A stretch of DNA of 64,000 bases. It comes from Agarivorans litoreus (GTDB lineage: Bacteria > Pseudomonadota > Gammaproteobacteria > Enterobacterales > Celerinatantimonadaceae). How positions within the stretch are numbered: position 1 is the first letter of the stretch; each line of letters starts with the position of its first letter. Both the position numbers and the translations under genes were made by a program. Of the stretch, positions 16,875 through 19,484 are shown one piece after another. Where the stretch lies: assembly GCF_019649015.1 (NCBI RefSeq), contig NZ_BLPI01000001.1:763501-827500 (forward strand). Reading direction: 5' to 3'. A model generated the notes under the pieces. It saw only the letters and a program-made list of their open reading frames with translations, was not told the origin of the DNA and searched no databases.

Positions 16875-17249
16875 ATGATTATTGATATTACCAGCAAAAC
16901 AATTTCTATTACCCCAACCATTCGTGAGCACATTGCCGCGCGCTTTGAGAAGCTAGAAAAAAACCAAATTCCGCTCATATCACCAAAAGTGATTATCACC
17001 ACCGACAATAAAAAGGTAAAAGTAGAAGCGAAGATCAATCTGCCAAACGGACAATTGTTTGCCAGCGATGAACATCAAGACCTGAGCGTTGCCATTAACA
17101 ATTTAGGGCAAAAACTTGAACGCCAGTTACACCGCTTCCAAGATAAGCCTAATGCGCACCGCGCTAGCCGCTCTGGAAAAGATTTTTTACGCTCGCCGAG
17201 TGAAGTAGACGATGGCGAGCCTAATCCCGAGGATGAACAAGCCGCATAA
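16875..17249 (+). CDS. raiA: Ribosome-associated inhibitor A (short HPF/YfiA family)
   Basis: The 124-residue protein has the HPF/RaiA fold over residues 1-95 (IDITSKTISITPTIREHIAARFEKLEK) and an acidic, disordered tail (SPSEVDDGEPNPEDEQAA) like that of E. coli RaiA, which blocks 100S dimer formation. It binds the 30S decoding region and stabilises idle 70S ribosomes in cold or stationary phase. Position immediately before pheL-pheA is the standard gammaproteobacterial arrangement and supports RaiA over Hpf. Confidence 0.93.
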   Translation: MIIDITSKTISITPTIREHIAARFEKLEKNQIPLISPKVIITTDNKKVKVEAKINLPNGQLFASDEHQDLSVAINNLGQKLERQLHRFQDKPNAHRASRSGKDFLRSPSEVDDGEPNPEDEQAA

Positions 17250-17330: not shown

Positions 17331-17387
17331 ATGAAAATATTCAACACCCGATTTTTGTTTGGTTTCTTTTTTACTCCACCCTTTTAG
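17331..17387 (+). CDS. pheL: pheA operon leader peptide (PheL)
   Basis: The 18-residue peptide MKIFNTRFLFGFFFTPPF has seven phenylalanines, five of them clustered at positions 8-14, and closely resembles E. coli PheL in its FFF run and proline-rich end. The stop codon abuts GGGAGGC, which can pair with the first arm of the downstream terminator, so ribosome position would decide whether the terminator forms. No clear Shine-Dalgarno precedes the ATG, which is unusual. The gene is too short for normal gene callers. Confidence 0.88.
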   Translation: MKIFNTRFLFGFFFTPPF

Positions 17388-17462
17388 GGAGGCGAACGGA
17401 ATTGGTGTAAAAACGAAAACACACAGAATCCATAAAGCCTCCTTCTTAGGAGGCTTTTTTGT
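17385..17462 (+). promoter_or_regulatory. Phenylalanine attenuator of pheA
   Basis: The terminator is AAGCCTCC / GGAGGCTT followed by TTTT (about 17435-17460), ending 20 nt before pheA. The alternative antiterminator arm GGGAGGC at 17387-17393 is complementary to GCCTCC at 17437-17442. A CTCC in the last leader codons can pair with that same arm. Ribosome stalling at Phe codons would free GGGAGGC to sequester GCCTCC and allow read-through; a ribosome at the stop would cover it and let the terminator fold. The layout is seen directly; the mechanism is inferred from E. coli pheA. Confidence 0.88.
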
Positions 17463-17480
17463 TAACAGGGAATACAACAG

Positions 17481-19484
17481 ATGGCAGACTTAGAGCAGAT
17501 CCGAACAAAAATAACAGCGCTCGACCAATCATTATTAACACTGCTGACTGAGCGTCGCCAACTCAGTGTTGAAGTAGCAAAAAGTAAAATAGAAAACCCC
17601 AAAGCGATTCGCGACCAAGAACGCGAACAGTTACTGCTGGTTAAGCTAATAAATAAAGGCAGAGAGTTAGGCTTAGACGCCCACTATGTGACTCAGCTTT
17701 ACCATACCATCATCGAAGATTCGGTACTTTCGCAACAAGCATTTTTGCAAGGTATTACTAATCCAGATATTCATGCGCAAGCGGTAAGAGTGGCATTTTT
17801 AGGTAACAAAGGCTCTTACAGTAATATTGCAACTCATCAATACTTCTCGCGTTATAAAAAGCAAATTGTTGAGTTTGGCTGCAGTGCCTTTCAAGACATT
17901 GTTGATACCGTGGAATCTGGTCAAGCTGACTACGGCATGTTACCGATTGAAAACACCAGCTCTGGCAGCATTAATGAAGTATACGATGTTTTGCAGCACA
18001 CCAGTTTGTCGATTGTTGGCGAGTTATCAATACCTATTGACCACTGTATTTTGGCTCATCCAAAAGCCAAACTAGAGCAAATTACTACCTTGTATGCTCA
18101 CCCTCAACCTTATGCTCAATGCAGCCTTTATTTGCGCACCTTAGCGAATACCCGAGTAGATTTTGTAGATAGCTCTTCCAAAGCTATGGAAGTGGTTGCC
18201 GGAGGCGACGATTTAACCGTTGGTGCCATTGGCAGCAAAGTGGGCGGTGAAATGTATGGTTTACAAGCCTTAAAAACCGATATTGCCAATCAACAACAAA
18301 ACTACACTCGCTTCATTGTTGTTTCCCGCAAACCGGTGGAGGTTGCAGAGCAAGTGCCAGCAAGAACAACTTTTATTATGTCAACGGCACAGCAAGCAGG
18401 TTCGTTAGTAGAAGCGCTGTTGGTATTGCGCGAGCACGATATCAACATGAGCAAATTGGAATCTCGCCCAGTACAAGGTAACCCTTGGGAAGAAATGTTT
18501 TATGTGGATGTTTCCGCCAATGTTAAGTCTAGCCAAATGCAATCGGCATTGGCAGAGCTAACACGCCTTACCCGCTACATTAAAGTGCTTGGCTGCTACC
18601 CAAGTGAAAATGTTGACCCAACGCTTATTCCGCTAGAAGCCTTAGCCAACAAAGACAAAAATAAAGGTAGCGAACCAAGCCTAATTAGCACCGTACAAGA
18701 AGATGGTGCGCTCTCTAGCCTCTCGCACAAGGCCAGTGCCACGGTAGTACGCGTTGGCGATGTTAAAATTGGTGATGGTGGCTTTGTTACCTTTGCTGGC
18801 CCTAGTGCAGTAGAGTCTGAACAACAAATCATAAACTGTGCAGGAGCAGCCAAAGAAAGTGGTGCTGCAGTACTTGCCGCAGGTTGCTTTAAACCTCGCA
18901 GTTCGCCTTATAGCTTCCAAGGTTTAGGTGAAGAAGGCCTAAGTTATTTAAACGCCGCAGGTAAAAAGTATAAGCTTCCTACGATGACCGAAGTAAGCTC
19001 GGTTGATCAGGTTGCCTCTTTAGCCGCTAAAGCAGACATACTGCATGTTCGCTCGCGCCACATGAAAAACTTTAACCTGTTAAAAGAACTGGGTAAGTCT
19101 ACTCGCCCTATTCTTTTAGAGCGCAATAATATGGCCTCTCTTGATGAGTGGTTACATGCTGCGGACTACATTTTGGCACAAGGCAACCAACAGGTGATTT
19201 TATGCGAAGCAGGCGTAAGAACGCTTGAAGGCAAGAATAAAATCACCTTGGACTTAGGCGCGATTAGCTTGTTGCGCCAACGAACCCACCTACCGATTGT
19301 GGTAAACCCAGGTGAAGCAGTAGACGAGCTAAGTGCGGTGGGTCCTATGGCCAAAGCTGCCAAGTTACTAGGCGCCGATGGTATTGTACTTTGTGCTCAC
19401 CCATCGCCAAGTGATGCCAGTGTAGATGCTGATAAATCATTAGATTTTAAACAACTACAACACTTGATGAGCGAGCTATACTAA
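17481..19484 (+). CDS. pheA: Bifunctional chorismate mutase/prephenate dehydratase fused to a degenerate DAHP synthase-like domain
   Basis: The 667-residue protein has an AroQ chorismate mutase domain (1-95), a prephenate dehydratase domain (about 107-285; VRVAFLGNKGSYSNIATHQYF, MLPIENTSSGSINEVYD), an ACT domain (about 297-380; LESRPVQGNPWEEMFYVD, the Phe-binding motif) and a linker. E. coli PheA stops at 386. Residues 423-667 resemble KDPG-type DAHP synthases (KPRSSPYSFQGLGEEGL, LDLGAISLLRQRTHLPI), but expected ligands are changed: AGPC to AGPS (Ser442), LLKRG to LLERN, CERG to CEAG, DPSH/DVTH to NPGE (Glu612) and EVHP to CAHP (Cys638). The extra domain is probably non-catalytic. Expression is under the pheL attenuator. 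Confidence 0.93.
   Translation: MADLEQIRTKITALDQSLLTLLTERRQLSVEVAKSKIENPKAIRDQEREQLLLVKLINKGRELGLDAHYVTQLYHTIIEDSVLSQQAFLQGITNPDIHAQAVRVAFLGNKGSYSNIATHQYFSRYKKQIVEFGCSAFQDIVDTVESGQADYGMLPIENTSSGSINEVYDVLQHTSLSIVGELSIPIDHCILAHPKAKLEQITTLYAHPQPYAQCSLYLRTLANTRVDFVDSSSKAMEVVAGGDDLTVGAIGSKVGGEMYGLQALKTDIANQQQNYTRFIVVSRKPVEVAEQVPARTTFIMSTAQQAGSLVEALLVLREHDINMSKLESRPVQGNPWEEMFYVDVSANVKSSQMQSALAELTRLTRYIKVLGCYPSENVDPTLIPLEALANKDKNKGSEPSLISTVQEDGALSSLSHKASATVVRVGDVKIGDGGFVTFAGPSAVESEQQIINCAGAAKESGAAVLAAGCFKPRSSPYSFQGLGEEGLSYLNAAGKKYKLPTMTEVSSVDQVASLAAKADILHVRSRHMKNFNLLKELGKSTRPILLERNNMASLDEWLHAADYILAQGNQQVILCEAGVRTLEGKNKITLDLGAISLLRQRTHLPIVVNPGEAVDELSAVGPMAKAAKLLGADGIVLCAHPSPSDASVDADKSLDFKQLQHLMSELY

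Follow-up and report, generated by a model that had tools for sequence, protein, structure and literature searches.

A conserved pseudoenzyme barrel at the C terminus of PheA, probably inherited from a trifunctional ancestor

The PheA protein encoded in the window (the whole stretch of 64,000 nucleotides that we analyzed) is fused at its C terminus to a DAHP synthase (DAHPS) barrel of the I-beta type that has lost most of its metal and PEP ligands, while its predicted fold is intact and its sequence is under strong purifying selection. The same fusion occurs with intact ligands in some relatives, and nearly all fused domains group together in trees. We consider it probable that the domain is a conserved pseudoenzyme derived from a trifunctional ancestor, the barrel having been kept as a structural or allosteric part of PheA. 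Its present role, as far as sequence conservation can suggest one, would be structural or regulatory.

The 667-residue product of pheA (17481..19484, + strand, as are all its parts below) was delineated by reading the open reading frame and by Pfam and NCBIfam models. It starts with an AroQ chorismate mutase (CM) domain (residues 7-86; 17499..17738) and a prephenate dehydratase (PDT) domain (residues 104-284; 17790..18332), which score 65.9 bits with Pfam CM_2 and 189.2 bits with PDT, above the cut-offs of 27 and 25.2, respectively, that define a bifunctional CM/prephenate dehydratase. The following ACT-like Phe-regulatory region (residues ~297-380; 18369..18620) scores 13.5 bits with Pfam ACT, below the cut-off of 27; it contains GSLV and ESRP motifs, which we take to be the Phe-regulatory ACT signature, and PDT structures with bound Phe match its predicted model. 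A fast-evolving linker (residues ~381-408; 18621..18704), with pLDDT below 50 at residues 392-408, leads to the barrel (residues ~409-667; 18705..19481), which is supported by Pfam, TIGR01361, alignments, and the predicted model. PheA passes the cut-off of the PDT model PRK11898 (224.3 vs. 219 bits) and misses that of the equivalog PRK10622 (548.8 vs. 577 bits, NCBIfam).

Upstream of pheA lies a Phe leader (17335..17463, + strand; Rfam RF01859, 73.3 bits, gathering threshold 55), in which a terminator-like hairpin comes after a PheL-type peptide read from the sequence, MKIFNTRFLFGFFFTPPF. The element is a classical Phe leader attenuator whose peptide contains seven Phe codons. A raiA-like gene (16875-17249; Pfam Ribosomal_S30AE) is also found upstream, and an SRP54 (ffh) gene lies downstream on the opposite strand. 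In one Rfam search of 15 loci, a Phe leader was present at seven (L001, which is the window, L010, L011, L015, L167, L182, and L183) and was not found at the other eight (L164, L165, L166, L181, L061, L067, L151, and L153). The seven leader-bearing loci are own-family or decayed loci, in contrast to the three intact fusions of the order (L013, L014, and L012), whose surroundings (L164, L165, and L166, respectively; 16-18 kb each) contain neither raiA nor a Phe leader match.

The affiliation of the C-terminal domain is clear. Pfam DAHP_synth_1 spans residues 427-662 (E 7.9e-50), and TIGR01361 (DAHP_synth_Bsub) scores 274.3 bits, above its cut-off of 267.75. In the predicted model, the domain forms the (beta/alpha)8 barrel of the type I-beta DAHPS family, with rmsd of 1.1-1.2 Å over 256-261 residues and 41-44% identity to 1zco, 1vs1, and 1rzm. 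Its best match in the PDB is 4grs, to which it aligns without a gap across the domain, and the fold matches also include CM-DAHPS I-beta fusions from Listeria (3nvt) and Geobacillus (5j6f), as well as a C11N KDO8P synthase structure. This comparison, performed with VIA-align among the families listed by the fold searches, is well tested for residues 410-667 only. An initial annotation made from the sequence alone had the open reading frame, frame, and residue identities right, and had proposed a DAHPS-type domain at residues 423-667 whose fold is retained while its chemistry is lost. The domain type stands, as does the intact barrel on structure prediction, while the structural comparison moves the start nearer to residue 409; the split between fold and chemistry is borne out by the alignment, the predicted model, and dN/dS.

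Next to this well-preserved fold, the active site is largely gone. We aligned the domain to Pyrococcus furiosus DAHPS (1zco) and took the ligand roles from the available text of PMC6362186, where the enzyme described has a numbering that runs five residues ahead of the P. furiosus one. In the Cys/His/Glu/Asp set of metal ligands, C31 is replaced by S442 (18804..18806), H201 by E612 (19314..19316), and E227 by C638 (19392..19394), which leaves D649 (D238) as the sole ligand kept. Among the six scored PEP residues, K471 (K60) and R526 (R115) are kept, and four are changed: R55 to A466, Q111 to H522, K136 to E547 (19119..19121), and R166 to A577 (19209..19211). On the erythrose 4-phosphate (E4P) side, R473 (R62) is kept and T63 is S474. 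Since four of the six PEP residues are changed, PEP binding by the domain, which the initial annotation had envisaged next to possible binding of E4P, Phe, or a partner DAHPS, appears unlikely. The five replacements it had named (S442, E612, C638, E547, and A577) are all correct; it had mentioned neither the change of D198, the Asp of DPSH, to N609 (19305..19307) nor the E4P-side residues kept in the window's genus. That the metal and PEP ligands might sit in shifted positions, the objection it had raised against itself, is ruled out by the gapless alignment to 4grs.

These losses go beyond chance, since the sites concerned are invariant in free enzymes and are changed more often than other conserved columns. 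Among the matches listed, C31, R55, K60, R115, K136, R166, H201, E227, and D238 are shared by all 67 free DAHPS from other phyla. We compared 72 columns in which at least 95% of 83 active-looking rows agree: the window protein is changed at 7 of 11 ligand columns, vs. 13 of 61 other conserved columns (Fisher p 0.008). All five own-family rows that we tested show the same bias (p 0.008 to 1.5e-6), as do eight out of nine further decayed rows (p 0.004 to 0.049), and it is absent from a partial form, G020 (4/11 vs. 10/61, p 0.13). These alignments confirm that the C-terminal domain has lost most of its DAHPS ligands.

How widespread is this architecture? PheA was detected at E <= 1e-50 in 213 of 247 genomes of the order, and at least 43 fused forms were read, which agrees with the suggestion in the initial annotation of similarly long PheA in relatives. 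They come from 12 genomes of the window's own family (all that match), 17 of genus g9 and one of g31 in family f6, five of f25 g28, three of f14, two of f20, and one each of f10, f12, and f15. Only three of the 43 (G059, G014, and G078) are intact at all 11 ligand columns, and these also pass the Pfam cut-offs for CM_2, PDT, and DAHP_synth_1. The partial form G020 has lost the Cys and the KPRTSP motif and kept LKRG, CERG, and DxxH; own-family fusions are ligand-dead with a full barrel; in the remaining fusions, almost no ligands are left and the barrel itself is incomplete. Erosion is thus graded in f6, f10, f12, f14 g35, f20 g60, and f25 g28, and elsewhere the domain is absent, with f15, f20, and f25 each mixing genomes with and without it. 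Since Escherichia coli and many relatives lack the C-terminal domain, it must be dispensable somewhere; the PheA of f18 is 77% identical to that of E. coli. The most eroded domain that we found is in L153 (G039, f14 g35), from a family in which genus g17 is intact; it scores no better with an intact-fusion profile than with free DAHPS profiles. In f25 g28 (L055-L059), the domain is almost unrecognizable although ~250 residues remain, with GNQQ and THLP still there in four of the five. No domain remnants were detected near unfused pheA at 30 loci in 26 genomes (best E 0.36), the search extending 0.7-4.1 kb past the gene end where that end was located (25 of 30 loci). Candidate fusions in other gammaproteobacteria were rejected, the long frames of G330, G382, G412, and G325 being upstream read-through among the matches listed.

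Despite the lost ligands, the gene is not in free decay. Across seven genomes of the window's genus, median dN/dS (Nei-Gojobori; unused pairs were saturated or too close) is 0.024 for the domain (253 residues, 10 of 21 pairs usable), compared to 0.015 for CM (17 pairs), 0.016 for PDT (13 pairs), 0.010 for ACT (7 pairs), and 0.136 for the linker (residues 381-414, 11 pairs). The domain is therefore under strong purifying selection, with a value five to six times under that of the linker. It evolves much faster, nearer to relaxed, in f6 g9, with 0.17 (6 of 136 pairs) against 0.014 for PheA (5 pairs), and in f25 g28, with 0.20 vs. 0.10 (6 of 6 pairs). We considered that the domain might be an in-frame fossil, functionless and kept only because cutting it off would destabilize PheA. 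The graded erosion in six lineages and the absence in others are in keeping with this, as is the word "pseudogene" used for the Shewanella case in the available text of PMC1173090. We nonetheless find it unlikely for the window's family, in view of the low dN/dS and of two derived residues, E547 and N609, that are fixed in 12 of 12 own-family rows.

Intact relatives turned up well outside the order. We scanned genome contigs with an alignment of the domain, which returned at least 80 loci (578 of 585 candidates were relatives), and 13 of the 80 listed encode PDT-DAHPS fusions. In 10 of these 13, among the matches listed, CM_2, PDT, and DAHP_synth_1 are all above the Pfam cut-offs; they belong to Ignavibacteria, bacterium BMS3Abin04, Melioribacter, Acidobacteria, a planctomycete, a myxobacterium, and an unnamed bacterium. 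The other three, L069 and L072 (Eremiobacterota) and L078 (Calditrichota), have no CM_2 match. The tabulated metal and PEP sites (a table without Q111) are intact in all 13 non-gamma fusions among the matches listed, as they are in six of six further long forms read from the phylum of G612. Candidate trifunctional forms, judged by intact DAHPS ligands, thus comprise 10 CM-bearing non-gamma fusions, six from the G612 phylum, and three of the order; the window protein, with its DAHPS site lost, is not one of them. At least one further PF00793 gene is present in 12 of the 13 non-gamma fusion genomes, G622 having the fused one only. With the CM-PDT part as query, 48 of 198 genomes of the G612 phylum matched at E <= 1e-60, with a long frame (673-736 aa) in 16 and a short one in 32, which rules out that all non-gamma PheA of this kind are fused. 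That the fusion had seemed universal outside gammaproteobacteria is a sampling effect, because those rows were found through the DAHPS domain. With its coexisting fused and unfused PheA, the G612 phylum offers a second setting for following how the DAHPS head is gained or lost.

Trees of the domain point to a common origin. A first tree sampled 12 of the 43 fusions of the order, 13 of 13 others, 45 of 67 free DAHPS, and 14 of 14 free DAHPS of the order; the tree used for AU tests had 6, 13, 18, and 6, respectively. In the latter, the six fused domains of the order and 12 of the 13 others form one group of 18 rows (support 97/91), and inside it a branch (87/94) separates the six of the order plus nine CM-bearing others from the rest. 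Free I-beta DAHPS of the order itself were rejected as the source of the domain, a common clade having p-AU 0.0015. After adding six more fusions, 23 of 24 fused rows were on one side (SH-aLRT 91). The exception is L078, whose domain falls among free DAHPS and may thus be a separate fusion. The likely origin of the domain, judging from these trees, is among intact trifunctional relatives.

Trees of PheA itself link the order to the same organisms. Two smaller trees included 18 of the 43 order fusions, 10 of 13 non-gamma fusions, and 18 of 28 unfused forms (E. coli being added in the second), with 16 of 284 matching gammaproteobacterial genomes and 4 of 12 distant ones; 20 rows from the G612 phylum were added for the widest tree, in which the bootstrap was unsettled. 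G035 and G058, whose genes run off a contig end, were left out of PheA trees and fusion-history models, and G127, a fragment, was not used. In the widest tree, PheA of the order, E. coli included, and of other phyla form a 67-row clade (100/100) apart from the 16 PheA of other gammaproteobacteria. Order rows group together (36 of 37, 99/97), with G039, the most eroded form, outside, and the non-gamma rows fall into groups mixing fused and unfused forms. A grouping of order PheA with that of other gammaproteobacteria to the exclusion of the non-gamma fusions was rejected (p-AU 6.7e-5), while a separate clade of order PheA, excluding the non-gamma rows, was not rejected (p-AU 0.29, smaller tree with E. 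coli). E. coli PheA is 43-44% identical to the non-gamma fusions L061, L063, and L067, and 33-34% identical to the three other gammaproteobacterial PheA compared.

Whether DAHPS was joined to PheA once or several times depends on sampling, since the root states differ between samples. A two-state Markov model with free rates gave a fused root in the widest sample (0.9996 in the best tree, 0.75-1.0 in 10 bootstrap trees), to which the search with the DAHPS domain had contributed 10 of the 16 non-gamma fused rows. In the smaller first sample, the best tree had an unfused root with repeated gains, and fused-root values ranged from 0 to 0.88 over 40 bootstrap trees. That preference for gains, together with the position of L078 and parsimony counts in which Fitch changes are fewer than Dollo losses (9 vs. 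11 in the first tree, and 14 vs. 16 in the wider one, with 12-17 losses in 30 bootstrap trees), would suit several independent fusions. We regard these as improbable, because every other fused domain tested clusters with the rest, away from the free DAHPS of the order, the extensions past the ACT end are similar in length (243-316 residues), 28 of 40 decayed rows (12 do not) score best with the intact-fusion profile, and the wider sample favors a fused root. A single fusion followed by many losses is thus favored by the sequences, although not proved. There is perhaps an even chance that the broader scenario holds, in which 1) PheA of the order, that of E. coli included, would come from a trifunctional CM-PDT-DAHPS that the order has in common with Ignavibacteria, Acidobacteria, and others through lateral transfer, 2) the DAHPS head would have been killed, eroded, or lost ten or more times, and 3) the dead head of the window's family would have been co-opted as a regulatory or structural part.

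Under a single fusion, ancestral PheA would have been a trifunctional CM-PDT-ACT-DAHPS(I-beta) enzyme, presumably active at each site, in which one Phe-sensing chain plausibly controlled both pathway entry and a late step; in an intact fusion, a single Phe-sensing ACT region could govern the two. In the window's lineage, the DAHPS site would then have lost its metal and PEP ligands, with separate I-alpha and class II DAHPS remaining. Each of five own-family genomes tested has one I-alpha and one class II DAHPS, so loss of the fused site could be tolerated. In the window's genome (G000), the class II and I-alpha enzymes are at C1:2579021-2580334 (L035) and C1:3214984-3215862 (L032), respectively, besides a KDO8P synthase; class II DAHPS had no match in ten genomes of f6, f25, and f10 that were tested. 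The barrel would have been kept most likely to hold the oligomer together and to pass on the Phe signal.

Several conserved features fit such a role. The K136-D198 pair, K-D in 80 of 80 rows from other phyla among the matches listed, has become E-N in 28 and E-R in 5 of the 43 fused rows read from the order, N609 co-changing with E547, which is also fixed in f6 g9. This charge-changing covariation fits selection on packing. At the position of P. furiosus D180-I181, the Asp-Leu pair of the window protein (D591-L592) is present in all 12 own-family and all 17 f6 g9 rows, even where the catalytic half is eroded, and the title of PDB entry 4c1l describes I181D as an interface mutant of P. furiosus DAHPS. 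Since Leu is also the commonest residue there in free enzymes (48 of 67 from other phyla, among the matches listed), this is a weak hint of a scaffold. The best-kept part of the barrel is strands 5 and 6, with the run R-P-x-x-L-E-R...W-L...G-N-Q-Q-V-I-L-C, in a family alignment whose columns before residue 413 were ignored because of end gaps in many rows. This pattern suggests to us that selection has favored packing and assembly over ligand binding.

A purely scaffolding role does not explain why K471, R473, S474, and D649 are kept in all seven own-genus rows and in g2, with R526 in six of the seven. These residues would suit the view of the initial annotation that the domain is a metabolite sensor, the old site binding E4P, a phosphate ester, or another ligand and tuning CM-PDT; there is precedent for a DAHPS activating and controlling a chorismate mutase (PMC10520331, available text). 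We find this more doubtful still than a fossil, because four of six PEP residues are gone, and R62 and D238 are missing from two genera of the family, g3 and g4, with K60 missing from g3 as well, which leaves no ligand set common to the family. That the domain is still an enzyme, with a rebuilt site or a metal-free one like that of metal-free KDO8P synthases, which have Asn in place of Cys, is hardly credible: the fold and one face of the site are kept, and the C11N structure is among the fold matches, but Cys, His, and Glu are all replaced, and differently among genera of the family (S/G/A/D, E/D, and C/W/L/N).

Taken together, these findings suggest a testable origin for the "bizarre" Shewanella PheA reported in 2005, namely a three-enzyme protein that is intact in other phyla. 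The available text of PMC1173090 describes AroQ-PheA of Shewanella oneidensis as fused to an "aroAI-beta pseudogene" "of unknown origin", listed as an event of that lineage. By this description, that lower gammaproteobacterial protein has the same domain order and the same DAHPS loss as PheA in the window, which likewise has a decayed I-beta domain after AroQ-PheA. The differences are that the window-type fusion spans many families, with intact relatives in other phyla, and that its domain in the window's genus is constrained, unlike a pseudogene. According to the same text, the enteric lineage has an AroQ-PheA unlike that of other Proteobacteria, a difference that a trifunctional origin would explain. 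We found no description of an intact trifunctional CM-PDT-DAHPS form in the open literature, subscription papers being mostly outside the search; the Geobacter protein described in the available text of PMC2700814 is CM-PDT only. Such a form suggests that the first step of phenylalanine synthesis may be coupled to late ones on a single chain that answers to one Phe sensor, and the series of intact, partial, dead, eroded, and absent domains is a natural experiment in how an enzyme domain turns into a pseudoenzyme and disappears.

Other known systems share parts of this design. E. coli PheA (P-protein) is 56% identical to PheA of the window over 374 residues, in the same raiA-pheL-pheA gene order, but ends just past the ACT region. 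The type I-beta enzymes 1zco, 1vs1, and 1rzm share the fold of the window domain, in which the metal and PEP ligands are lost. The Listeria and Geobacillus fusions likewise combine shikimate enzymes and an I-beta barrel in a single chain; they join CM directly to DAHPS, without PDT or ACT, whereas in the window the barrel follows CM-PDT-ACT and has lost its ligands. Finally, in Mycobacterium tuberculosis, DAHPS bound to chorismate mutase boosts and regulates the mutase (PMC10520331, available text). By analogy, this complex may serve as a model for what the dead barrel could do, with the difference that its partners are separate proteins and its DAHPS is active, whereas the window has a single chain and a dead DAHPS.
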